Counted from the stretch's first letter, positions 2,128-15,413 are shown. The stretch: 38,760 nt of DNA from a virus (IMGVR_UViG_3300029199_000012:1-38760), one strand, 5' to 3'. The notes: generated by a model from the sequence alone, not told the origin. Program-made: numbers and translations.

Positions 2128-2556
2128 TCAGAAGTGGGCCTTGATGTCCTTGGTCGACACACCACCGGACCAGACGAACAAGGATTGCTCCTTGAGCGCC
2201 TTGATGGTCATGGCTCCCGTCGGGATGTTCCGTACGTTCGACCAGTGGACCACATATACCATGCTGTCTACCCGGATCATCAGCCAGCAATACCCTGCCG
2301 CCTCGCCCCGGTTGAACAGCCACCGCCGTTGGCCTGGGGTATAGTGGGACAGATCCACAGAACCATCCTTGGACTCCACCGCTTTAAGCTCTATCCACCC
2401 GTGGTGTCCGTTATAGGTATATGCCACATCTGGCACACTGCTGGCGGTACTGCCGGTCTCTATCCGGTCGTAGAACATGCCTGGAATAGCCTCCAGGCGG
2501 GGTTTCAGGCCGTTCCTCCAGAAGTTGCGCTCCAGCTTCTTTTGGCTCGGTGTCAT
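2128..2556 (-). CDS. PD-(D/E)XK nuclease, VRR-NUC / Holliday-resolvase-like
   Basis: This encodes 142 residues, starting at the ATG (2556) that overlaps the stop of the datZ-like gene (ATGA). The PD-(D/E)XK core is visible: an N-terminal Glu helix (near E9), P-D at 42-43, E-L-K at 56-58 on the next strand, and a downstream Q-R-R-W-L helix (Q76) typical of resolvase-like members. Such nucleases cut branched or damaged DNA; in phages they often resolve recombination or replication intermediates before packaging. An extended reading frame to 2985 exists but overlaps datZ heavily and lacks a suitable start, so the short form is preferred. The fold call is firm; the substrate is inferred. Confidence 0.8.
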   Translation of the reverse strand: MTPSQKKLERNFWRNGLKPRLEAIPGMFYDRIETGSTASSVPDVAYTYNGHHGWIELKAVESKDGSVDLSHYTPGQRRWLFNRGEAAGYCWLMIRVDSMVYVVHWSNVRNIPTGAMTIKALKEQSLFVWSGGVSTKDIKAHF

Positions 2557-3140
2557 ATCAGGTCCTCCAGGAACGTCTGCTTGCCGTTGGCTATCTCGGC
2601 ATAGGTGGATTCCATAGCGTCCCGCAGGGGGTGGCCCTCGGTCGCCTGTATAACAGCTTCCAGCTTGTGTCCCAGGTGCACTTTGACGTTCATCGCGTGT
2701 TCGTCCTGGCCCTGCTGCCTCAGGAAGTGTATCGCATCCATTAGGTCGGCTGCCTTCAAAATGGAAGCCTGGATACCTGCCACCGGGTAGCTGGGCTCGA
2801 AGGACTGCTCTATATTTTTCAATTCCTGGCTGGTGGCAGGGCCCATAGCGTCCTTGAGAGGTGAGGGCAAATCCCCCAGGACCACCTCGGGCAGATCGTG
2901 GTATAGGCAGGCCAGCAGCACACCGGAGCGTATGAAACCGAACTCCATAAGCTGCCCCTGGCATATGGCGGGGTGATCCGCCCACCGGTCCAGGATGTCC
3001 ATGGCGATAAGCATCACATTGCAGGTGTGCTCCGCCACATTTTGCTGGCGGTCGGTCTTCATGATCTGCCAGCGCTCGACATTGGCCATCCGTAGCTGGT
3101 CGCGAATACTCAGTCGGTAGGTTTTGGATGTGTCAAACAT
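2553..3140 (-). CDS. datZ: HD-domain dATP triphosphohydrolase (DatZ-like)
   Basis: This encodes 195 residues of the YfbR-type HD family. Metal and substrate residues are recognisable: R23-W24, the N-V-A-E-H motif ending at H38, the H81-D82 pair followed by L-P-E, and a late K-A-A-D segment near 129. In Z-genome phages the family member DatZ cleaves dATP to deoxyadenosine and triphosphate, emptying the pool that would compete with dZTP. Sequence alone cannot separate DatZ from a host-like 5'-deoxynucleotidase. The context decides: purZ, a MazG-like gene and a family A polymerase lie just upstream in the same direction. The start at 3140 is preceded by GGGAG, and the end overlaps the nuclease gene. 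It is probably cytoplasmic and early. Confidence 0.85.
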   Translation of the reverse strand: MFDTSKTYRLSIRDQLRMANVERWQIMKTDRQQNVAEHTCNVMLIAMDILDRWADHPAICQGQLMEFGFIRSGVLLACLYHDLPEVVLGDLPSPLKDAMGPATSQELKNIEQSFEPSYPVAGIQASILKAADLMDAIHFLRQQGQDEHAMNVKVHLGHKLEAVIQATEGHPLRDAMESTYAEIANGKQTFLEDLI

Positions 3141-3213
3141 TTATCTTGGCTCCCTTTCTCTTGTAGTACTCATTAAGGTCTAACGCCCTGTGGCATTTTG
3201 CGCATGTTTTCAT
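3133..3213 (-). CDS. 26-residue CxxC zinc-finger microprotein
   Basis: This very short frame begins at an ATG (3211-3213) that overlaps the stop of the mazZ-like gene (ATGA at 3210-3213). It ends 8 bp inside the datZ start. The peptide opens MKTCAKCHRALDLNEYY and ends in a Lys-rich tail. The C-A-K-C pair followed by a helix resembles the first half of the short Cys-rich domains often found next to HNH nucleases and in phage small proteins. It fills the gap between mazZ and datZ exactly with overlaps on both sides, which is the best evidence that it is translated. Function unknown. Confidence 0.6.
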   Translation of the reverse strand: MKTCAKCHRALDLNEYYKRKGAKINV

Positions 3214-3512
3214 ATGTGATGCATGATGCCTGTTTCGGGGTCCACTTCCCAGGACCGTTGTTTGTTTATCTCCATCTTGTCCCAGGCTGCTTGCACTGCA
3301 TCGATATCACGCAGCCCCGCAGCATCCAGGACAAGGATCAGCAGGTCCGCCCACTCGCCAGGATCGTCCTGGCCGCCGTTCAGGAGTTCAGGTATTTCCT
3401 CCATCACCATCTTGGACAGGGCGGAATAGGGGGTTCGATCAGGATATACCTGGTCAGCCCAGGTCTTGATTTCCTGCTGCAGATCCTTGATCGTCTTCTT
3501 TTCGTTGCTCAT
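3210..3512 (-). CDS. mazZ: MazG-like dGTP/dATP pyrophosphohydrolase (MazZ-like)
   Basis: This encodes 100 residues from the ATG at 3512, with GGAGAAA about 8 nt upstream; a longer in-frame start at 3557 is less well supported. The family metal site is present as E-E-I-P-E followed by E-W-A-D-L-L, matching the EExxE and ExxD pattern of MazG-type all-alpha pyrophosphohydrolases. K-M-E-I-N-K-Q-R-S-W and G-I-M-H-H at the end are typical of the small phage dATP/dGTP pyrophosphohydrolases (DUF550-like). In Z-phages MazZ converts dGTP to dGMP, the substrate of PurZ. Its neighbours are the 167-residue dGTP_diPhyd_N-type protein and datZ, and the order suggests a single pathway cassette. Confidence 0.85.
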   Translation of the reverse strand: MSNEKKTIKDLQQEIKTWADQVYPDRTPYSALSKMVMEEIPELLNGGQDDPGEWADLLILVLDAAGLRDIDAVQAAWDKMEINKQRSWEVDPETGIMHHI

Positions 3513-3654
3513 ACTGACGCTTTCTCCGATAGGAACACTTGGGGCAAACCCAGTCATATTTCTCCGCCCTGGAGGGGTAGTACCCCTCCTCCGGAACCTT
3601 GCCGCACTTCACGCACGGCTTATCAACCACTACTCGGTTTGAATCGTCGGTCAT
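3454..3654 (-). CDS. small zinc-ribbon protein
   Basis: This encodes 66 residues from the ATG at 3654, preceded by AGGAG at 8 nt. A Cys4 ribbon is clear: C-V-K-C near residue 15 and C-P-K-C near 39, followed by a basic Y-R-R-K-R-Q-Y-E-Q-R-K tail. It overlaps the upstream gene by about 32 bp and the mazZ start by about 59 bp. The pattern resembles small phage zinc-ribbon proteins that may bind nucleic acid or act as adaptors for nucleases. Its position between the two pyrophosphohydrolase-related genes is striking. Specific role unknown. Confidence 0.7.
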   Translation of the reverse strand: MTDDSNRVVVDKPCVKCGKVPEEGYYPSRAEKYDWVCPKCSYRRKRQYEQRKEDDQGSAAGNQDLG

Positions 3655-4126
3655 CCTGTTCTCTCCTGTTCTTCATGATCCAGTTCACCATCATCAGGCA
3701 AGACGAGGCGTGGATCAAGTGGGGTTTCCCGGTCTCCGGGTCCAATTCTTCTCCAGCCAGGAACGCCAGGGTGTGGCGCTGGTGCGCGTCCATCAACCGC
3801 TCGACCGACAAACCCTGCCAGTTCAGACGTCCATACTTGTTGTCCCCGAACTGCAGAACATGGGCCATGTCCAGCAGGAACTGGGGGTCGATGGTGGTCA
3901 GGGGTGGCTTGCCCTGGTCAAACTTCCGGGACACCTCCGCCACATCAGACGCCATCTCGTCGGATACTATGGACTCCTGGTGCCGCCAGTGTTCCTTGGC
4001 CTCTCCGGGCGCTTCCGCTGGCATCGGCTGGTGGGATACGGCCTGGGCTACCGGGTCCATCTCGTGATACGGCTTCCCGTGGTCGGAAGGTGTCTTCCGG
4101 TGCTGGTCTCCGAGTCTGGTTCCCAT
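3623..4126 (-). CDS. dATP/dGTP diphosphohydrolase N-terminal-domain-like protein
   Basis: This encodes 167 residues from the ATG at 4126, preceded by GGAG within GGAGAATAAGGTG; a longer start at 4168 would invade the HNH gene. The N-terminal 55 residues are polar and probably disordered. The conserved part begins at K-F-D-Q-G-K-P-P-L and continues through F-G-D-N-K-Y-G-R-L-N-W, an R-H-x-L-A-F helix and an H-L-I-H-A-S-S-C-L helix. That matches the domain found at the N-terminus of phage dATP/dGTP diphosphohydrolases (dGTP_diPhyd_N, related to DUF5664). The MazG-like half is a separate gene downstream (3210-3512). I infer that the two may work together, but a stand-alone role is possible. Confidence 0.7.
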   Translation of the reverse strand: MGTRLGDQHRKTPSDHGKPYHEMDPVAQAVSHQPMPAEAPGEAKEHWRHQESIVSDEMASDVAEVSRKFDQGKPPLTTIDPQFLLDMAHVLQFGDNKYGRLNWQGLSVERLMDAHQRHTLAFLAGEELDPETGKPHLIHASSCLMMVNWIMKNRREQDDRRFKPSSG

Positions 4127-4130
4127 CACC

Positions 4131-4565
4131 TTATTCTCCTTTTTTCCTGAGTCTCTTAACACTTTCAATAGCGTTGCAGTTGAAACACAATACCCTGAAC
4201 TTTAGATGATCAGGGTATCCATTGTTCTTTAACCACACGTATAGGGCATACCCTCCCCAAGGGTGCTTACCGTTTTTCCTCATCTCTCCGCCCCCTCCAT
4301 CCACGTGGTCCAAAGCTAAAGCGTCGGGGTGATCAAAGCCGCACAACGAACAATAGTTTCCACCATAATGTTCAAACACTTCTTGTTTGCATTTTTTGGT
4401 AGAAGTTGTAGCATACTTAAGAGCTTTATCTTTGTTTTTTCTCCTCCATTCGTTCACTTTTTCTCGGTTACAAGCCACGCACCGTCCACTACTTTTTTGG
4501 CGCTCCCCTTTAAGTTCTGGGTGTTTTGGGCACGTATTTCCCGTGAATCTCTTCAACGTCTGCAT
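4131..4565 (-). CDS. free-standing HNH homing endonuclease
   Basis: This encodes 144 residues. An N-terminal Cys pair (C-P-K-H then C-V-A-C) is followed by the HNH nuclease: C-S-L-C, then D-H-V-D-G-G-G-G, an N-G-K-H-P-W-G-G-Y segment, and the closing C-F-N-C-N. This arrangement is typical of phage free-standing HNH enzymes that nick or cut intron-less target sites and spread by homing. The gene is clearly AT-richer than its neighbours, with runs of T and A at 4370-4450, suggesting recent acquisition. Its first 56 bp overlap the 3' end of purZ in another frame, as if it had inserted at the end of that gene. Confidence 0.85.
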   Translation of the reverse strand: MQTLKRFTGNTCPKHPELKGERQKSSGRCVACNREKVNEWRRKNKDKALKYATTSTKKCKQEVFEHYGGNYCSLCGFDHPDALALDHVDGGGGEMRKNGKHPWGGYALYVWLKNNGYPDHLKFRVLCFNCNAIESVKRLRKKGE

Positions 4566-5613
4566 GCGATGGACCCCAAGTCAGGTATTTAACGTTACCG
4601 CCAGACTCAGCGATATCCCGCATTATACTACCAAGAGACGCAGCATCGCAATAGTTAGCAAAGCCAAGAACTATTTCGTCGATACCGCCCATCTCCACGG
4701 CTTCCCGTAGCTGGTTTCGGGAGAACGTAAACACCCGGCGTGGCAACTGGGTTACGGTCGTGACTTCCACCGGCTGCTGCAGATACTCCCAGGATATCTC
4801 GGTCTGGTCAGCGTAGTGGGGCCCAGACCATCCCACCATGTTACCGTCCTCGTCATACCGGTTCGCTACCCTGATGGGGTAGGTGCGGGCACTGCCGATA
4901 CGGGTCATGGGCCAGTATGCCGGGACACCACAATCAACACAGATCTGGGCCGGGGTGCACTCCCTGGAGGTAGTGTAGGGATAGAATCCAGACAGCATAC
5001 CGAGACTGTAGCCCTGTGCGCCTTCGATCTGGAGGACGTCGCCCAGTTTAAGTACCTCGATCCATTCAGCCTGGGTAGGCACGATCTGAACTCGGATACC
5101 GTAGCGGTCGTATAAATCCTCAAACATGAACCGGATTTCGTCTTTCCAGTCGAAGGCGGTGATCAAGTTCTCCGGGTTGCGGCGGATCTTGTCGATCAGG
5201 GCTGCACCACACCCTTTCTTGGTGGACCCGATCTTGGTCATGGGTCCGGCTTCCTCGTCCCGGTGCTTCTGCTGCACGATGGTGGCGTTGCCGTGGATGT
5301 AGATGGTCGTGCCCATGGTGTGCAGGACGGAAGCTTTTACCTCCTCGTACAGGCTGTCCAGATTGATGGTGCTGCCGGGGCCCAGGCAGATACGCTTGAG
5401 GTTCTTGGACACGATGCCGTTCGGGAGCATGGTGTGTACGAACTTCTCGCCCTGGGAACTGATATAGGTGTGGCCCGCGTTCGGGCTCCAGGCGGAAACC
5501 AGGGTATCGGGCTGGTGCTTCTCGGCCAGGTACCCTGCAATCAGACCCTTGCCAGTGGAACCGAACTGCAGATCGCAGATCAGGCGGATATTGCGGGGGT
5601 GGTCAATGATCAT
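4510..5613 (-). CDS. purZ: PurZ, N6-succino-2-amino-2'-deoxyadenylate synthase
   Basis: This encodes 367 residues from the ATG at 5613, preceded by GAGGAG at about 8 nt. It is a homologue of adenylosuccinate synthetase. The P-loop reads F-G-S-T-G-K-G (17-23), where bacterial PurA has G-D-E-G-K-G. Replacement of the catalytic Asp by Ser (S19) is a recognised hallmark of PurZ. N-A-G-H-T at 45-49 keeps the catalytic His. Later PurA-like blocks are I-E-G-A-Q-G, T-T-S-R-E-C-T and T-R-I-G-S-A-R-T-Y-P-I-R. PurZ joins aspartate to dGMP; host PurB then releases dZMP. It starts the Z-cluster with MazZ and DatZ downstream and DpoZ upstream. The last 18 codons overlap the HNH gene; the frame is otherwise intact. 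Confidence 0.92.
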   Translation of the reverse strand: MIIDHPRNIRLICDLQFGSTGKGLIAGYLAEKHQPDTLVSAWSPNAGHTYISSQGEKFVHTMLPNGIVSKNLKRICLGPGSTINLDSLYEEVKASVLHTMGTTIYIHGNATIVQQKHRDEEAGPMTKIGSTKKGCGAALIDKIRRNPENLITAFDWKDEIRFMFEDLYDRYGIRVQIVPTQAEWIEVLKLGDVLQIEGAQGYSLGMLSGFYPYTTSRECTPAQICVDCGVPAYWPMTRIGSARTYPIRVANRYDEDGNMVGWSGPHYADQTEISWEYLQQPVEVTTVTQLPRRVFTFSRNQLREAVEMGGIDEIVLGFANYCDAASLGSIMRDIAESGGNVKYLTWGPSHADVEEIHGKYVPKTPRT

Positions 5614-5902
5614 CTTGGTTCTCCTCGATCTCTTTGGCGATGTCCAGGACACCGGATTTTTCGATAAGGTTACGTGCGTACATCGGGTCGGCAGCATTAC
5701 TCAGGGCCAGGTCGGCTTTGTCCCAGGACTCGTCGCTGTCATCGCTCCAGGAGATGGCCATGGAACACACGCCCAGGCCCTTTGGAGCCAGGAAAATGCG
5801 GATCTCCGGATTCCCGGTCTCGTCCGCTTGCTGCTGGATCACCACTACCTGCCCGATGTCGCTATAGGTGTGCAGGTGGGCGAACTTGTTATCCTCGGTC
5901 AT
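5603..5902 (-). CDS. small acidic hypothetical protein
   Basis: This encodes 99 residues from the ATG at 5902, with GGAGCCCGCAA upstream as ribosome-binding site. The N-terminal half contains hydrophobic strands (Q-V-V-V-I-Q, E-I-R-I-F-L-A-P-K-G) and the C-terminal half is acidic and helical, ending E-E-N-Q-D-D-H. I recognise no family. It overlaps the purZ start by 11 bp and follows the possible ssDNA-binding protein by 12 bp, so it is co-transcribed with purZ from the promoter at 6220-6248. A role with the Z-pathway is possible only by association. Confidence 0.65.
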   Translation of the reverse strand: MTEDNKFAHLHTYSDIGQVVVIQQQADETGNPEIRIFLAPKGLGVCSMAISWSDDSDESWDKADLALSNAADPMYARNLIEKSGVLDIAKEIEENQDDH

Positions 5903-5914
5903 TTGCGGGCTCCA

Positions 5915-6187
5915 TCAAATTGGGATATCGTCGTCGAAATCGTCCACGGGTTCCGGCATACCGCCGCCCTGGTTGCCAGTGCTGGCGGGCTGGTCGTCCT
6001 TCTTGGTCAGGGCCATCGAGATCATCTTCTCACCCTGGCGGGGGCCACCTTTCACTTCGCGGGTCCAGGCGGATACCCAATACTCGACACCATCCACGTT
6101 GATGGAGCCTTGCATATTTGGGTGCGTGTCCTTGGTCCGGCGCTTATTTTTGAACAATGCACCACTATTGGTGTTGTCATACGACAT
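5915..6187 (-). CDS. small phage protein with SSB-like acidic tail
   Basis: This encodes 90 residues from the ATG at 6187, with GAGGAGAGAATGC upstream. The core (about 1-65) carries alternating strands: N-K-R-R-T-K-D-T-H-P, then G-S-I-N-V-D-G-V-E-Y-W-V-S-A-W, then K-M-I-S-M-A-L-T. A Gly/Pro-rich linker follows, and the acidic tip reads D-D-F-D-D-D-I-P-I. Single-stranded-DNA-binding proteins commonly end in such an acidic D-D-D-I-P-F tip used to recruit partners, so a minimal OB-type SSB-like role is a fair hypothesis. I cannot confirm an OB fold. It is the first gene after promoter P3 and leads the purZ operon. Confidence 0.65.
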   Translation of the reverse strand: MSYDNTNSGALFKNKRRTKDTHPNMQGSINVDGVEYWVSAWTREVKGGPRQGEKMISMALTKKDDQPASTGNQGGGMPEPVDDFDDDIPI

Positions 6188-6219
6188 GCATTCTCTCCTC
6201 TCTGTTAAGATGCGGGCCC

Positions 6220-6248
6220 ATTATACCATGGGCCCATCCATGGGGCAA
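6220..6248 (-). promoter_or_regulatory. sigma70 promoter P3 of the Z-nucleotide operon
   Basis: On the minus strand the -35 is TTGCCC (6243-6248), with a 17-bp spacer containing GGATGGG and an extended -10 TGG-TATAAT (6220-6225). A 7-bp inverted repeat, GGGCCCA at 6214-6220 and TGGGCCC at 6229-6235, brackets the -10. The -35 directly abuts the dpoZ stop. It should drive the genes from 6187 leftward through purZ, mazZ and datZ. Confidence 0.85.
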
Positions 6249-8114
6249 TCAGGTTGCCTTGTCCGCTTCGGTTGCTTCCCACCAGTTATCGGAGGGTAGG
6301 CCAAAGTCGATACGGATCGGTACCCGCAGATCGGGTTTATCCTGGATCAGGCGCTGGATCTCCCGCAGGTGTTCGATCTCTTTGCCGTCAGGCTCCAGGG
6401 AAACCGAATACTCGTCGTGAATGTTCAGCAGCAGCCGGTTATGCGGGCACTCCGACTCCATATACTCGTCTATCAGGATCATGTTTTCTTTGTTCAGGTC
6501 GGCGGCACCGCCCTGGTAAGCCAGGCCACACGCCTTGCGGGCCATACTCTTGTGCGGGAACCGGATGTGCCGGTCACGCAGGGTTCGGATGTATCCCCTG
6601 GACATAGCCACCCGCTTGGCCTTCGCTGCCATCTCCCGGATTCCGGGCACGTTCCGGTGATACTCTTCAACCAGTTCCAGGCCCTCGGGTCCGGATTTCT
6701 GGAAGCGTATCTTCTCGCCGTCCCGCGTTTCAAACTCGTCCCATTCCCAGGGCAGGCCGCACAGATCCGCCATATGCCCGGAGCCCATGCAGAATACCAT
6801 CCCCAGGTTCAACTGTTTGGCGTTCGGGCCGCCAGCAGCCGGGGCAGACCTGGGAAGGCCGGTAAGATCCGCCACCCGCTGGTGAAAATCCAGGTCCGGG
6901 TTGTCCTTGTACGCCTGGATGATGTCTGGGTTGTTCACGTAATGGGCAAAGATCCGGTATTCGTGCTGATCCAGGTCACCATATGCCCAGCGCTGGCCGG
7001 GATCTGGTAGGAACATTGGGCGCACCATGGACGCGATATCTTTGTCTTGGGCAGGGATCTGCTGCAGAGCAGGGCCAGTATAGGACAGTCGCCCGGTGCC
7101 GGTGCCCATCACACCGCCGTCATTGTCGCCCTTGGTCTGGTTGATGTTCGGGTGCACCCTGCCATTCCTGGCGTGTCCCAGGATGTGCCCCTTGATAAAG
7201 GTGTCTCGGGCCTTCATCAGCTTGCGGCACCGGAGGATTATCGCGGCTGCCGGGTGTTTCATGGACTGGAGTGCTTCTTTCCCCAGGCTGGGCTGCCCCG
7301 CGTCAGTGGACTGCAGGGGCGTACCGTCGATTGCTACCCAGGAACCATCCGGGCGTTGCTTCGGGGCGAACAGCTTCTTGATACTGCCGGAGGGGTTCGG
7401 GTTCACTTCAAAACCGGCGATCTCCCGGAGTTGCTGGATGTCCTGGTCTACCTTGGCAGTGATAGTGTCGATGGCCTGTTCCGCTCGGTCCTCGTCCACC
7501 CGGATTCCCCGGATCTCCGACTTGTACACCACCTTGAACAGGCGTTTCTCTAGGCCCCAGATTCTCTCCAGACCCTGGCGGGCTATCTCCTCTTCCTGCC
7601 ACTCCCAGAGCTTGAGGGCACCCCGGCTGTCGTCCTTGGCGTACTTGGCCACCAGGCTCACCGGGGCCCGGTACAGGTTATGCATCTGTACGTTGCGGGT
7701 CGCCTTGCCCCCGAACAGGTTCGCCAGTTCCTGGTAGATCTCGTTGTATTTGGACATCTTGAGATATCGCTTGAGCAGGCTATCCAGGGCATAGCTCGGC
7801 AGATGCTCGTTAATCAGGGCTGCCCGGATCTGGGTACACTCGGCCTTTGTCGGGTCGATATTCACCCCGCGCTTCCGCAGCATGTGCATGTCGAACTTGA
7901 TGTTGTGGTTTACGATCTTGGAAGCCTTGTTGATGTTTGCCTCCAGCCAGGGTATTACGTTTGGCTCCCGGCGAAAGTCCCAATAGTAGTCACCGCCACC
8001 CTGGATAGACAGGGCCAGACCGAACGCGTTTACGTTCGGGTCCGTCCAGTCCAGGCCGTTGGTCTCAGTATCTGGGCAAATAACTTGCCCGTCCAGATTT
8101 GGAAACTCGCTCAT
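6249..8114 (-). CDS. dpoZ: family A DNA polymerase with 3'-5' exonuclease (DpoZ-like)
   Basis: This encodes 621 residues from the ATG at 8114, with GGGGAGG nearby; the ATG overlaps the methyltransferase stop (ATGA). The exonuclease domain shows D-T-E-T-N-G-L-D-W (D15, E17), N-H-N-I-K-F-D near 69 and Y-A-K-D-D near 160. In the polymerase domain, T-G-R-L-S-Y precedes motif A, which reads G-D-L-D-Q-H-E-Y-R (catalytic Asp near 380) instead of the usual D-Y-S-Q-I-E-L-R. Motif B is K-Q-L-N-L-G-M-V-F-C-M-G near 433 and motif C is I-H-D-E near 566. No 5'-nuclease domain is present. With purZ, mazZ and datZ adjacent, this matches DpoZ, the polymerase that prefers 2-aminoadenine. The family is certain; the base preference is inferred. 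Confidence 0.9.
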   Translation of the reverse strand: MSEFPNLDGQVICPDTETNGLDWTDPNVNAFGLALSIQGGGDYYWDFRREPNVIPWLEANINKASKIVNHNIKFDMHMLRKRGVNIDPTKAECTQIRAALINEHLPSYALDSLLKRYLKMSKYNEIYQELANLFGGKATRNVQMHNLYRAPVSLVAKYAKDDSRGALKLWEWQEEEIARQGLERIWGLEKRLFKVVYKSEIRGIRVDEDRAEQAIDTITAKVDQDIQQLREIAGFEVNPNPSGSIKKLFAPKQRPDGSWVAIDGTPLQSTDAGQPSLGKEALQSMKHPAAAIILRCRKLMKARDTFIKGHILGHARNGRVHPNINQTKGDNDGGVMGTGTGRLSYTGPALQQIPAQDKDIASMVRPMFLPDPGQRWAYGDLDQHEYRIFAHYVNNPDIIQAYKDNPDLDFHQRVADLTGLPRSAPAAGGPNAKQLNLGMVFCMGSGHMADLCGLPWEWDEFETRDGEKIRFQKSGPEGLELVEEYHRNVPGIREMAAKAKRVAMSRGYIRTLRDRHIRFPHKSMARKACGLAYQGGAADLNKENMILIDEYMESECPHNRLLLNIHDEYSVSLEPDGKEIEHLREIQRLIQDKPDLRVPIRIDFGLPSDNWWEATEADKAT

Positions 8115-8716
8115 GATAATCCTCCCCACTGATCAGCCATAGCCTCTGCGATACCCCGGTACGTAGTACTTCTGATTTTCCATCGGTCAGGGCTCGGGGG
8201 TAAGTAAAACAACCTCTCGCGCTCCCGCTTAGACAGCTTCATCATTTCATCGTACACGTATTCCGTCGGCGTAAGGTTTGGTAAGTTGTGCAACCAAAGG
8301 CCGGTTTTCTTCTGCTCCATATGGCCAAACATCCATGGCTGCACGTATTGTGCTGGCTTAATTCCGCCGAGTCTCGGTAGAACTCCCACCGGGTTTTCCA
8401 TACAAACGCCTATAGAGGCATTCTTTTTAGCCAGCTCCCACAGGGCTACAGTCCAATCCACCGCTTCAAGACGGTTTTGGTATTTCGGTTTGCCTTCGCC
8501 ATAGGTTGAATTCCCGGCAGACGTCAGGGCTGTACAAGGGGGGTGCATAATGATCAAGTCCCAGCCCTGTTTTATCACCGGGACACAATCGCCCTGAATG
8601 TGGTTCGGGCTGTTGTCGTCTGCCGGTAACAGGTCGTTACTCCAGGCATCGTGCCCGCGACTCCGAAAGGCTTCACGTACGACACCACTATACTCACAAG
8701 CCACTAATACTCTCAT
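8111..8716 (-). CDS. cytosine-C5 DNA methyltransferase-like protein
   Basis: This encodes 201 residues. The N-terminal L-V-A-C-E-Y-S-G start resembles the SAM-binding motif I of C5-methyltransferases. The catalytic motif IV is H-P-P-C-T (Cys61) and motif VI is M-E-N-P (106-109), with an R-S-T-T-Y-R-G-I-A-E-A-M-A segment at the end resembling motif X. The length is short for a complete Dcm-type enzyme and no clear target-recognition domain is visible; phages carry many compact relatives of this kind. It overlaps helicase and polymerase genes at ATGA junctions on both sides. A methylation role in Z-DNA, a dNMP-modifying role or loss of activity are all possible. Confidence 0.75.
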   Translation of the reverse strand: MRVLVACEYSGVVREAFRSRGHDAWSNDLLPADDNSPNHIQGDCVPVIKQGWDLIIMHPPCTALTSAGNSTYGEGKPKYQNRLEAVDWTVALWELAKKNASIGVCMENPVGVLPRLGGIKPAQYVQPWMFGHMEQKKTGLWLHNLPNLTPTEYVYDEMMKLSKRERERLFYLPPSPDRWKIRSTTYRGIAEAMADQWGGLS

Positions 8717-10194
8717 TTCGTCACCTCCAGGAAGGATACAGGGTTCTGGGCCATCACAATGTCCAGGCGCTGGCGGGCCCTGGTAATACCTACGTAGAAT
8801 GTCCGGACCTCAGAATCTGGGTCCATGCTCATGGCCTCATAGGTGCGCTCGGTCATGCCGTTGATGATCACCACGTGGTCGGCCTCCTGGCCCTTGGAGC
8901 CATGGATAGTGGATAGCCGCACCTTGGGCTCTACCGCCAGGGTGTCGTACTTGTCCTCGATCCGGCGCATGTAGATAGCCTTTGGACCCGGCACATTGAT
9001 AATCTTGCTCCAGTGCTTCCCGGCCAGGCCAGTCAGATCCTCGTCCTGGATACGGCGCTTGATGCTCGGCTTCGCCAGGGTCAGCAACGGTTTCAGTTGG
9101 TGCCTGGGGGTGATGATGGCCTGGTGGTTCTTCCACTCCGCCCGGATCTTGTCCCAGATAATGGCAGCCCTGGCGTACATGGACTGCAGGACACCCGGCT
9201 TGCCGGTTTGCACCGAGTAGGGTATACCCCTGGACTGGAAGAAATGCTCGATCTCGTCCCGCAGGCTGTGGTTCCGGTACAACACCAGGGTATCATCGTA
9301 CTCGTCCAGGACGGGCCCCAGGGACCACACGGAGGTATGTCTCTGCACTACCCCGGTATGTGTGGTCGGATTGTACGCCTTATCCATTCGCGGGCCCTGG
9401 ATGCGGTCGATGACCTCATGGGCGATGTCGTGTACCTTCACCGGGATTCGGTAGGACTGGGCCAGGATGTGGACATCAGCATCAAAGTCCTGGGAGAACT
9501 TCATCATGCCCTCGGGGTCAGCACCACCCCAGACGTATATAGACTGGTCATCGTCACCGGCCACATATACCCGGTCCACCGACTGGGCCCACTTATAGAC
9601 CAGATCCCACTGCATCCGGGACAGGTCCTGGGCTTCATCCACGAACAGGACGTCGATATCGGGGTTCTCCGCGTCCATCGCCAGGGCTAACATATCTGTG
9701 AAGTCAACCAGGCCATGGTTCAGCTTCCACTTGTCATACTGCTCACAGAAAAACAGGAACTGCCACATGGCACCCTCGATCCTGGCTTCGGTGAAACCTC
9801 GCTCGATGTCATGCGGATAGCGCTTTTGGGCTCGTAGCTTGGCATGCAGCGCCAGGTAGGAATCACCCACCTCGGCAAACTCGCCCTCGTCCGGGTTGCT
9901 GCCGGTGATAGGTATCTTGATCTGATTGCCGAACTCCCGGAGTTCGCTATTCTGCACCACTTGCTCCCGGACCAGGCCAGCCAGGCGGAAGCACATACTG
10001 TGGATGGTCGCCACGTTGCCCCCGGTGCCGATACCGGCGCGTTTCGCCAGTTCCTGGGCTGCAGCCCTGGTGAAGGACACCAGGCCGATTCTATTGGGGT
10101 CTACACCTTCCTCGACACACTGGGTCATGGTGCCGATTATCTTTGTACTCTTGCCGGTCCCTGGGGGTCCGAAGAAACTATATGCTTTTGCCAT
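8713..10194 (-). CDS. superfamily 1 (UvrD/PcrA-like) DNA helicase
   Basis: This encodes 493 residues with the full SF1A motif series: Walker A G-P-P-G-T-G-K-S-T at 9-17, motif Ia F-T-R-A-A-A, Walker B V-D-E-A-Q-D, motif III G-D-D-D-Q-S-I-Y, motif IV Q-S-Y-R-I-P, motif V S-T-I-H-G-S-K-G-Q-E and motif VI V-G-I-T-R-A-R-Q-R-L. It is shorter than bacterial UvrD (about 720), so accessory subdomains are reduced. It should unwind DNA 3' to 5' during replication or recombination. The gene sits between the terminator hairpin at 10223-10242 and the methyltransferase, with an ATGA overlap to the latter. Confidence 0.9.
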   Translation of the reverse strand: MAKAYSFFGPPGTGKSTKIIGTMTQCVEEGVDPNRIGLVSFTRAAAQELAKRAGIGTGGNVATIHSMCFRLAGLVREQVVQNSELREFGNQIKIPITGSNPDEGEFAEVGDSYLALHAKLRAQKRYPHDIERGFTEARIEGAMWQFLFFCEQYDKWKLNHGLVDFTDMLALAMDAENPDIDVLFVDEAQDLSRMQWDLVYKWAQSVDRVYVAGDDDQSIYVWGGADPEGMMKFSQDFDADVHILAQSYRIPVKVHDIAHEVIDRIQGPRMDKAYNPTTHTGVVQRHTSVWSLGPVLDEYDDTLVLYRNHSLRDEIEHFFQSRGIPYSVQTGKPGVLQSMYARAAIIWDKIRAEWKNHQAIITPRHQLKPLLTLAKPSIKRRIQDEDLTGLAGKHWSKIINVPGPKAIYMRRIEDKYDTLAVEPKVRLSTIHGSKGQEADHVVIINGMTERTYEAMSMDPDSEVRTFYVGITRARQRLDIVMAQNPVSFLEVTK

Positions 10195-12023: not shown

Positions 12024-13802
12024 TTACAGGAACTCGTCTACTTTGGCTCCGTTTTTGAGCCTGTCACGGATGTACTGGGCTACGTCCTTCTTGTCCCGAA
12101 GGGCCCGCATGATGGTTTTCTCCACCTTGGTGTTTGCCACGATGTCGATATAGGTTACATGCTCGTCCTGGCCAATCCGGTGATTCCGGGCCTCGGACTG
12201 CAGGCGGTCCCGCAGCTTGAACGAGTTGGACATGTATACCGAATACTTGGCCTCGTTGAAGGTAAGGCCGGTGCCACCAACACTGGTCATCAGCACCTTG
12301 AACCGGGCAGAATCCCTGGACTTGAAATCGGCTGCCGCCTCTTTCCGCTCCTCCCTGGTCATACCACCGTGGTACTCCACCACAGCATCATCGCCGTACT
12401 TCTTCCGGAGCACCTCGCAGACATCCTCAATCTCCATCCGGTATTTACACCAGATCAGGGCCTTGCCGCGTACCTCCTTGAGCACAGACAGGAGTTCCTG
12501 GATCTTCGGGTTGTGCTCCGGTGACACCACCCTGGCCCTGGTCCGGCGCTTCAACATCTCCTCGCCGTCCATAGACAGGTACTCCTCGGAATATCCGACA
12601 TGGCCGGTGCATACCTGCTGGATTGCCGTGTACACCGCCAGCACACCTTCGGTTATGATCTCGATGTCCTGGCCACCGCTCTTGATGGCAGTCTCGCCCT
12701 CACCCTGGATTTCCTTGATGATACGCTGCTGCTCTTTCGACAGGGCCACATACCTGGGCGGCATGACTATCTTCTCCGGGATATCCGCCACCTCGTCGAG
12801 GGTTGCCTGGAACACATGCGGCTTGATGATGTCCATAAGCTCGTCCATGTTCTGGAACCCGATGACCTGCTTGTTTTCGAATCCGCCCTTGATGGTATAC
12901 CGGCTCTTGAACGAGTAATAGTCGCCAAAACCCAGGATCTCCGGGTCGAGGTATTCGAACTGGCCATACAGGTCCAGGGGGTTTCCGTCCGTCTCGGTGC
13001 CGGTCGCTATCAGTCGGGCCCTGGCACCGGTCGCCAGGTGAGCTATATTCTCCCACCGGTTCGTTTGGTGATTCTGGATGTAGTGGGATTCGTCGATAGC
13101 AGTGAGATATCCGTGGTTGCGCTCGTCCGCCACAAAATCCAGGACCAACTGATATGCCCTGCCTTTTGCAAATCCCTGCTGCAGAGACTCGATGCCGCAG
13201 ATCAGCACCTTGGGTCCGGTGCTTTCCTTGTCTACAAACTCCTGGACCTCCCGATATGCCTTGGTGTCCTGGGTCTCCACCACACCTACCTCGATATCAG
13301 GTATCGGGCAGTGTATGCCGATCTCGTCTACCCAGTTATCACGGATAGCTACGGGGCAGAACACGACTACTGATTTGGCCTGGCCGGACATGATCTTTGC
13401 CGAGTACCAGTCTATGATCATCTTCGATTTGCCGGTTCCCATCTCACAGAACAGGGCCGGGTTTGGTATGCCCCAGATAGTATTCAGGCCCAGGTGTTGG
13501 ATCTTCCGGGGCTTGGTTTTGAACGGGTACCAGGCCGGGAACGCCTCGGCACTCCGTTGTGCGCGTTGCTCCAAGGACTTCTGGCACAACTCGCGGGCCT
13601 CGTCAGTAAGCACTGCCTTCCTGATCTTCTCCAGGTCCAGGAGGTAGTCCACATTCCGGGCCACGGCTGGGCCCTCCCAGGCTTTAAGGCGTTTTTTGAA
13701 CCGCCTGTTGGGCATAGCTTTGACCAGGTGGTTATCCGAGAAGTTGCAGGTTATCAGGAACCTGTTTGCTTTCTTGGTTTTCTTGATATCTACGTGGATC
13801 AT
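12024..13802 (-). CDS. SWI2/SNF2-family DEAD-like helicase
   Basis: This encodes 592 residues. After a basic N-terminal region (1-100), motif I is C-E-M-G-T-G-K-S-K-M (119-128) and motif II is D-E-S-H (237-240). A motif III-like A-T-G-T-E-T follows. The C-terminal RecA domain shows A-L-I-W-C-K-Y, then T-S-V-G-G-T-G-L-T and motif VI Q-S-E-A-R-N-H-R-I-G-Q, which is diagnostic for Snf2-type translocases. Phage members of this class act in replication restart or DNA remodelling. The start overlaps the primase stop (ATGA at 13799-13802), so primase and helicase are co-translated. The family is firm; the precise role is inferred. Confidence 0.88.
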   Translation of the reverse strand: MIHVDIKKTKKANRFLITCNFSDNHLVKAMPNRRFKKRLKAWEGPAVARNVDYLLDLEKIRKAVLTDEARELCQKSLEQRAQRSAEAFPAWYPFKTKPRKIQHLGLNTIWGIPNPALFCEMGTGKSKMIIDWYSAKIMSGQAKSVVVFCPVAIRDNWVDEIGIHCPIPDIEVGVVETQDTKAYREVQEFVDKESTGPKVLICGIESLQQGFAKGRAYQLVLDFVADERNHGYLTAIDESHYIQNHQTNRWENIAHLATGARARLIATGTETDGNPLDLYGQFEYLDPEILGFGDYYSFKSRYTIKGGFENKQVIGFQNMDELMDIIKPHVFQATLDEVADIPEKIVMPPRYVALSKEQQRIIKEIQGEGETAIKSGGQDIEIITEGVLAVYTAIQQVCTGHVGYSEEYLSMDGEEMLKRRTRARVVSPEHNPKIQELLSVLKEVRGKALIWCKYRMEIEDVCEVLRKKYGDDAVVEYHGGMTREERKEAAADFKSRDSARFKVLMTSVGGTGLTFNEAKYSVYMSNSFKLRDRLQSEARNHRIGQDEHVTYIDIVANTKVEKTIMRALRDKKDVAQYIRDRLKNGAKVDEFL

Positions 13803-15352
13803 AGGTCTGGCTCCAGGTCGGGTTCCTCAATGTCGATCTCGTCATCCTCAGACAGGGGTACTGCCCACACCGGCACCACAGTACCAGCAGCCCGCACCCG
13901 CTTGTGTTCGATACCGGATTCCCGGAGGGCCATCCACAGGTTAGGGCCCTTCAACTCCTCGGATTTTGTCTTCTTGAGGAAGTCCACGAAATCCGCAGCC
14001 CGGAAATATACGAATCGCTTACCCTTCACTGCCTGTACCACAGGGGCACCATGCAGCAGGTCGTCCCGGTCCTTTGGTTCCTTGCCGTCACTGGACAGGT
14101 CGGCCTTGCGCACGAACTCCTGGAGCTTATACCGGATGATACCAGATGTGGATGCTTCCTCGGGGGCTTCAACCAACTCAGCATCAGTCATGAGCTTGTG
14201 TAGCTGGCCCTGCCACCGGTCGTTCTTCATCGGCGGTATCAGCCTGGTCAGACTGTCGGCCACGGCCTCTCGTACCTTCTTGTAGTCCATGATCTCAGCA
14301 GTGGACAGCACAATCTCCTTGCCGTCTACCTCAATACCCCACCGGACCGGATCTGTCATATACTTACGCAGGGGCCCGAAATCCGGGTATGAGCCCATCT
14401 CCAACTCGCCCTTTTCCTCGGGCGTGATGCCGTACTTCCTGGTCACACAGATGGAGGACTTGCACAGTGACCGGCATGGCTCCTCCTTGCATTTGTACCG
14501 GTAGTCCCGTCGCCCGGCGCTAGTGATTGTCTTTTTCGCTTCGGAATGGGACAGGGGCTTGTCGAATGTCCTGGCGTTCAGGTCGAACGCTTTATCCTTC
14601 CAGGTCTCGGGAAACGCCTTCTTGAGATACACTGTGTAGTTATACAGGGCCTCGTTCCGGTAGCCGCCGGGCACACCATTCGCGATCATGGACTGGATGC
14701 AGGGTGGGGCCTCGGAATGGCTGGTTTCGGATCTCTCCACCAGGACGGCTGCAGATATACGCCTGTTCTCCGCAATGTCCAGGAAGTGGTCAAGCTCGAT
14801 CCGCCTGCCACCTTCGAAAGCATACCGGCGCTGGTCCGGGTTCTCCGCGTCGAAAAAGCATAGATTGATCCAGTTGCCCCACTGCTTACCCTCGTTCGGG
14901 ATATCCGGCAGGTGTTCCTGCTTCGGGAAGATCTCACACCCAGCATGGCCCAGTTCCTCTGCCCACCGGGACATGGTGGCCCGCACCACCTTTGCAGGTA
15001 GGGGCTCCGATCCGAACAGGTATAGGTGAGCGCCACCGGACTTGGACCGGCACACCGTCAGTGGTAGGTCTTTTTCACGTACCCGCTCCTCCAGGGCCAG
15101 CAGGTCGATATCCGGTGCGTCGCCATGTGCATCCAAGTCCAGGGCCGCGAACCAGCAGGTGTCGTCGTCCCGAATCGGCACAATGCCCAGGCCGATCTCG
15201 CCATCCAGATGCTTCTGGAACGTCTCGGGGGTGTAGTGCGCGTCTTTGATTGTGCTGGCAGGTGGCTTCCTGCCCTCTATATATTCGCCATAAGATCGGG
15301 TGTTGCCACGGAACAGGTTAGCGAACCGGGCAACCAGTTCTGGATCTACCAT
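13799..15352 (-). CDS. archaeo-eukaryotic-type primase (PrimPol-like)
   Basis: This encodes 517 residues; the ATG at 15352 is preceded by AAGAGGTGAAA, while a GTG two codons earlier is weaker. The N-terminal 200 residues carry the AEP core: A-L-D-L-D (catalytic Asp72 and Asp74), R-S-K-S-G-G-A-H-L-Y (102-111) and later E-I-F-P-K-Q and W-I-N-L-C-F-F. This resembles the primase domain named for TOTE conflict systems and phage primase-polymerases. A Cys cluster near 290 (C-K-E-E-P-C, C-K-S-S-I-C) may bind zinc, and the C-terminal half is helical with a strongly acidic end. It probably primes, and may also polymerise, DNA. The gene is the first downstream of the GTGATA-rich region. Confidence 0.85.
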   Translation of the reverse strand: MVDPELVARFANLFRGNTRSYGEYIEGRKPPASTIKDAHYTPETFQKHLDGEIGLGIVPIRDDDTCWFAALDLDAHGDAPDIDLLALEERVREKDLPLTVCRSKSGGAHLYLFGSEPLPAKVVRATMSRWAEELGHAGCEIFPKQEHLPDIPNEGKQWGNWINLCFFDAENPDQRRYAFEGGRRIELDHFLDIAENRRISAAVLVERSETSHSEAPPCIQSMIANGVPGGYRNEALYNYTVYLKKAFPETWKDKAFDLNARTFDKPLSHSEAKKTITSAGRRDYRYKCKEEPCRSLCKSSICVTRKYGITPEEKGELEMGSYPDFGPLRKYMTDPVRWGIEVDGKEIVLSTAEIMDYKKVREAVADSLTRLIPPMKNDRWQGQLHKLMTDAELVEAPEEASTSGIIRYKLQEFVRKADLSSDGKEPKDRDDLLHGAPVVQAVKGKRFVYFRAADFVDFLKKTKSEELKGPNLWMALRESGIEHKRVRAAGTVVPVWAVPLSEDDEIDIEEPDLEPDL

Positions 15353-15413
15353 TTTCACCTCTTACTCTCTATTATTAGAAGCCGGGGAACTGTCCTGGGT
15401 GGACAGACCTCAG

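Follow-up and report, generated by a model that had tools for sequence, protein, structure and literature searches.

The viral record IMGVR_UViG_3300029199_000012:1-38760, which was analysed over its whole length of 38,760 bases (57% G+C) and is referred to here as the window, carries siphophage genes (terminase, portal, head, and tail) together with the 2-aminoadenine (Z) genes purZ, mazZ, datZ, and dpoZ. We hold with high confidence that the window belongs to a Z-DNA siphophage in which mazZ is split into three reading frames, and that the linker of the fused MazZ proteins of its relatives is a zinc-ribbon gene, with both frames under selection. Probably, the clade of SH-Ab 15497, PMBT28, and the window encodes a conserved zinc ribbon of the Z cluster, which was overlooked because it lies out of frame within the mazZ linker in most of the clade; the fused MazZ would have arisen by read-through of DUF5664 into DUF550, and the window would have kept the unfused three-gene order.

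The split mazZ of the window

The window encodes MazZ and the zinc ribbon in three open reading frames (ORFs), which occupy three different frames; positions are counted from the first base of the window.

3210..3512, minus strand: mazZ-C, a DUF550 (MazZ-1 type) (d)GTP/dATP pyrophosphohydrolase, a separate protein of 100 residues starting at ATG 3512 (PF04447, 3.9e-7)
3454..3654, minus strand: zinc-ribbon ORF of 66 residues, CxxC...YYPSRAEKYDWVCPKC, in the third frame (phrog_2945, 1.9e-4), with homologous +1 ORFs in the mazZ of relatives
3623..4126, minus strand: mazZ-N, a separate protein with a DUF5664 dATP/dGTP diphosphohydrolase domain, starting at ATG 4126 in a frame open from 4168 (PF18909, 1.7e-27; PHROG 801, 5.2e-33)

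The original prediction had a MazG-like pyrophosphohydrolase at this place, which agrees with the DUF550/dATP-dGTP_PPHyd (PF04447) match; the second domain, DUF5664, which forms a gene of its own, had been missed. The solved structure nearest to the DUF550 protein is PDB entry 7ody (MazZ of S-2L; 1.1e-14), and the protein keeps all of the S-2L residues E34, E35, E38, E50, D53, I56, D60, and R83. In S-2L MazZ, E35, E38, E50, and D53 are metal ligands, I56 and D60 contact the guanine, and R83 is also described (PMC8342488). The DUF5664 protein aligns with the N-terminal half of the SH-Ab 15497 MazZ, and its frame closes with two consecutive stops, TGA TAA; i.e., DUF5664 and DUF550 are not joined as in SH-Ab 15497 but are separate ORFs in different frames. 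The zinc-ribbon ORF overlaps the 3' end of DUF5664 and the 5' end of DUF550, and its start is an ATG within the Asp-Asp codons of DUF5664 (gATGACc), with AGGAG 8 nt upstream. As a guess, its product could be a small accessory protein of the Z cluster that binds nucleic acids or proteins.

The zinc-ribbon frame within the fused mazZ of relatives

SH-Ab 15497, PSA28, S6a, and other phages have a single MazZ protein, in which DUF550 follows DUF5664. Such fused proteins occur in the Z phages of Acinetobacter, Klebsiella, Salmonella, Pseudomonas, and Providencia and in several environmental ones. A homologous zinc-ribbon ORF was observed in 19 of 23 distinct fused loci (18 by motif, and L114 by inspection of the reading frame by eye), and it is always in frame +1 and exactly within the inter-domain linker. 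The four loci without it are L009 and L018, the linkers of which are 24 and 51 nt, respectively; L078, in which the domain order is reversed; and L124. In L124, the long linker contains CxxC pairs that are read in the frame of MazZ, possibly through capture of a zinc ribbon in frame. Among the records whose annotation around the linker was shown, no gene is annotated in the zinc-ribbon frame (L093 carries no annotation), and no literature on a gene overlapping mazZ was found in a search covering few subscription journals. In the fused MazZ, the linker appears to be a zinc-ribbon gene that is overprinted and dual-coding.

Apparent selection on both frames

Variable sites were counted by MazZ codon position (1/2/3) in two groups, 9 Acinetobacter phages and 5 other phages. 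In the Acinetobacter phages, the counts are 21/12/66 for DUF5664 and 34/20/80 for DUF550, and 39/23/21 for the zinc-ribbon region; in the other phages, they are 33/22/60 and 32/24/77 for the flanking domains and 37/29/22 for the zinc-ribbon region. In both groups, the most variable MazZ codon position is therefore the third in the flanking domains and the first in the zinc-ribbon region (chi-square p = 3.6e-8 for the Acinetobacter phages and 6.3e-6 for the others, which are guides rather than exact values because the sites come from related sequences). Over the same region, the amino acid identity is 0.78 and 0.77 in the zinc-ribbon frame and 0.64 and 0.64 in the MazZ frame for the two groups. 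The full zinc-ribbon motif appeared in 0-2% of synonymous MazZ shuffles per locus. When the zinc-ribbon protein was recoded synonymously, the MazZ frame was open in 0.7-14% of cases per lineage, whereas it is observed open in 9 of 9 lineages; the same frame is closed in the window. Because of the flip in codon position and this excess of openness, both frames of the linker appear, from the sequences, to be under selection at the protein level in the fused phages.

This overlapping gene would be a clear natural case of a linker between domains that arose from a pre-existing gene through use of a different frame. The work on the MazZ of SH-Ab 15497 used a protein whose linker DNA would also encode a second conserved protein, and since that DNA appears to be dual-coding, replacement or recoding of mazZ would disturb both proteins.

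The Z cassette

The remaining three genes that define the cassette are as follows.

2553..3140, minus strand: datZ, HD-domain dATP triphosphohydrolase of 195 residues (PF12917, 3.8e-14; PHROG 7076, 1.5e-25)
4510..5613, minus strand: purZ, succino-2-amino-deoxyadenylate synthase of 367 residues (NF038379, P-loop, and tree)
6249..8114, minus strand: dpoZ, DNA polymerase of family A (621 residues) with a 3'-5' exonuclease (NF038380; PDB 7pbk)

All cassette genes are on the minus strand at the positions first predicted, and the presence of purZ, mazZ, datZ, and dpoZ is upheld by coordinates and family matches. The places of the genes stood, while two starts were corrected from alignments, probably to ATG 5613 for PurZ and ATG 3512 for DUF550; the zinc ribbon (3454-3654) and an HNH ORF (4131-4565), which interrupt the cassette, had been passed over. 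The gene order datZ-mazZ-purZ-SSB-dpoZ-helicase (SSB, single-strand DNA-binding protein) is syntenic with SH-Ab 15497. The phage very probably makes Z-DNA and, judging from its genes, would be one of a known kind.

PurZ passes the NCBIfam NF038379 model (359.3 bits, cutoff 300), and the solved structures nearest to it are PDB entries 6fm1 (phiVC8 PurZ; 4.1e-78) and 7odx (S-2L PurZ; 5e-76). The predicted Ser-containing P-loop is present as QFGSTGKG, in which Ser replaces the catalytic Asp13 of PurA (QWGDEGKG in E. coli PurA). E. coli PurA and E. coli YfbR served as outgroup and comparison sequences. In the phylogeny that had been proposed as a check, PurZ branches within the clade of phage PurZ proteins and is separated from both E. 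coli PurA and PurZ0 (Johann, Sapo). It is 53% identical to PurZ of SH-Ab 15497, 48% to that of phiVC8 (by alignment), and 24% to E. coli PurA, and the nearest PurZ among 50,697 phage records is that of Acinetobacter phage Barton (54%). With a best match at this level in about 50,000 records, the cassette is a divergent addition to the known Z cassettes, although the overlapping gene is of more consequence. A single-protein PurZ search of viral contigs gave no matches, whereas an alignment-based search did yield them. Relatives of purZ were also seen in bacterial assemblies (L087-L091; metagenome-assembled genomes of Verrucomicrobia, Proteobacteria, and Gottesmanbacteria), of which L087 contains the entire cassette and is possibly a phage contig assigned to the bin of its host. 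The purZ loci L037 and L038 have a DUF5664 gene, and no DUF550 was found inside the stretch scanned.

The HD protein is of the YfbR type, as predicted (PF12917), and its best matches are PHROG 7076 'dATP triphosphohydrolase' in PHROG and 6zpa DatZ in the PDB (2.3e-8). All 14 of the S-2L DatZ residues checked are kept (R19, W20, I22, Q29, A32, H34, H66, D67, E70, G74, P79, K81, K116, and D119); the specificity and metal-ligand residues of S-2L DatZ have been published (PMC8065100). The DatZ-type residues I22, Q29, and A32 of the window correspond to Leu, Glu, and Ser in E. coli YfbR, and the grouping with host YfbR that would have spoken against the original prediction did not appear, as judged by these residues and by pairwise identity.

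DpoZ passes the NCBIfam NF038380 DpoZ_1 model (854 bits, cutoff 500) and is 60% identical to that of SH-Ab 15497. It aligns end to end with the pol I of its nearest solved structure, PDB entry 7pbk (2e-153), which we take to be the structure of phiVC8 DpoZ. The phiVC8-like signature is present (R440, L455, F459, G548, and three insertions), as is R161; the four signature residues and the three insertions were described for phiVC8 DpoZ (PMC8599892). Position 583 is Glu in the window and SH-Ab 15497 and Ser in phiVC8. The altered motif A of the original prediction exists (YGDLDQHEYR), but its meaning as a mark of Z specificity does not hold: GDLDQHEYR is common, up to Y/F, to SH-Ab 15497, PSA28, and the enterobacterial-type Z phages and is not found in phiVC8 or BUCT555, and it is therefore a marker of a subclade.

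Expression of the zinc ribbon, origin of the arrangement, and alternative explanations

Several points weigh against our interpretation. Profile comparison of the zinc ribbon with the PDB yielded rubredoxin matches at chance level only, with no solved relative, and its AlphaFold model is weak (predicted local distance difference test score, pLDDT, of 65) and insufficient for a fold search. The identity of DatZ to the DatZ of other Z phages is just 22-30% (19% to E. coli YfbR). Z-DNA is predicted here from genes, the direct criterion being the nucleosides of the virion DNA. The support for the window as sister of the fused clade is moderate (83/92). Finally, no convincing zinc-ribbon start with a ribosome-binding site was found in the Acinetobacter and most of the enterobacterial-type loci (L002-L004, L092-L102), where expression of the hidden ORF is putative and may possibly use another start codon or frameshifting.

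This last point, in the face of selection at the protein level, is what gives weight to programmed ribosomal frameshifting from DUF5664, which would produce a DUF5664-zinc-ribbon protein beside the full MazZ; the invariably +1 relation of the frames also fits. On the other hand, the window, L016, L017, L021, and L032 have an ATG and a Shine-Dalgarno-like site directly before the ribbon, and we regard frameshifting as a possible but less probable route than separate initiation. An early ATG of the zinc-ribbon frame within DUF5664 (SH-Ab 15497 and PSA28) was dropped as a candidate start, because the variable sites of that stretch follow the codon positions of MazZ alone.

A different possibility is that no fused MazZ exists in vivo, that the zinc ribbon and DUF550 are translated separately everywhere, and that the open linker frame is accidental, as the three separate proteins of the window, with their own starts, and the poor conservation of the linker in the MazZ frame would suggest. 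We consider this improbable: given the zinc ribbon, an open MazZ frame is expected in few cases per lineage but was seen in all nine lineages tested, and the literature describes the MazZ of SH-Ab 15497 as a single tandem protein active as a dGTP/dATP pyrophosphohydrolase (PMC12884076).

It is much less likely still that the cassette is degenerate or serves another purpose in a phage with normal adenine: the four proteins are intact, with catalytic and specificity residues present, and the entire cassette is syntenic with phages of the known Z-DNA type. That the protein is really fused, as in close relatives, and the split came from a mistake in sequencing or assembly is hardly credible, since the two successive stops and the three frames mean that fusion is not restorable by one indel, and an ATG preceded by a purine-rich site opens both the zinc-ribbon and the DUF550 ORF.

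With regard to origin, the PurZ tree, which was built without L114 and L124, groups nearly all of the fused loci included in it into a single clade of 19 rows, to which the window is sister (support 83/92 and 91/90); L078, with its reversed domain order, falls outside. This fits an ancestral unfused order of DUF5664, zinc ribbon, and DUF550, from which later read-through would have given the fused MazZ. Alternatively, the split of the window may be secondary.

Proposed pathway

The steps are assigned by homology to characterised enzymes (PMC12884076, PMC8342488, PMC8065100, PMC8599892). DatZ would strip the triphosphate from dATP, and the MazZ halves DUF550 and DUF5664 would turn dGTP and dATP into dGMP and dAMP. 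PurZ would couple aspartate to the dGMP supplied by MazZ, giving a succino intermediate, and host enzymes would complete dZTP, which DpoZ would prefer over dATP for incorporation.

Neighbouring genes

Further genes of the window in and around the cassette are as follows.

4131..4565, minus strand: HNH endonuclease ORF, located between mazZ and purZ and sharing bases with the 3' end of purZ (PHROG 2255, 4.4e-11)
5603..5902, minus strand: ORF of 99 residues (phrog_9037, 2.7e-17)
5915..6187, minus strand: SSB of the Z-phage type, positioned as in SH-Ab 15497 (phrog_18154, 7.9e-17)
8111..8716, minus strand: short C5-cytosine-methyltransferase-like protein with PPC and ENP motifs (phrog_757, 2.6e-58)
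8713..10194, minus strand: UvrD/PcrA-like helicase; SH-Ab 15497 likewise has one downstream of dpoZ (phrog_1967, 4.4e-86)
13799-15358: primase with an AEP-TOTE domain (PF22548)

The HNH ORF is not at the corresponding place in SH-Ab 15497, PSA28, or S6a and is a probable mobile insertion; a related HNH lies between purZ and datZ in L044. The methyltransferase-like gene, between dpoZ and the helicase, is 69% identical to that of Alteromonas phage PB15 and was not matched in any other of the scanned purZ loci. Conceivably, the Z-DNA bears a second base modification. The AEP-TOTE primase stands alongside a family A DpoZ in the window, and in S-2L a PrimPol serves as the polymerase. No tRNA genes were found in the window, and scans of it for promoters and terminators gave chance-level results.

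Comparison with known Z systems

SH-Ab 15497 has the same genes in the same order as the window, from datZ to the helicase. The two differ in that MazZ is fused, with the zinc ribbon hidden in mazZ, in SH-Ab 15497 and split in the window, and in that only the window has the HNH ORF (between purZ and mazZ), the 99-residue ORF (between purZ and SSB), and the methyltransferase-like gene (between dpoZ and the helicase). Cyanophage S-2L shares the conserved residues of DatZ and of its DUF550-only MazZ with the window, whereas its MazZ is without the DUF5664 part; S-2L is reported to lack DpoZ and to have PrimPol (PMC8065100). Vibrio phage phiVC8 resembles the window in PurZ (48%) and in the signature residues of DpoZ, but phiVC8 has MazZ-2 in place of the MazZ-1 of the window, a different motif A, and an annotated integrase between purZ and dpoZ. 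The PurZ0 phages (Wayne, Ghobes), which carry DutZ and DmtZ (PMC12884076), follow the same overall strategy, and Wayne has a separate DUF5664, as does the window, while the PurZ of the window falls outside the PurZ0 branch.

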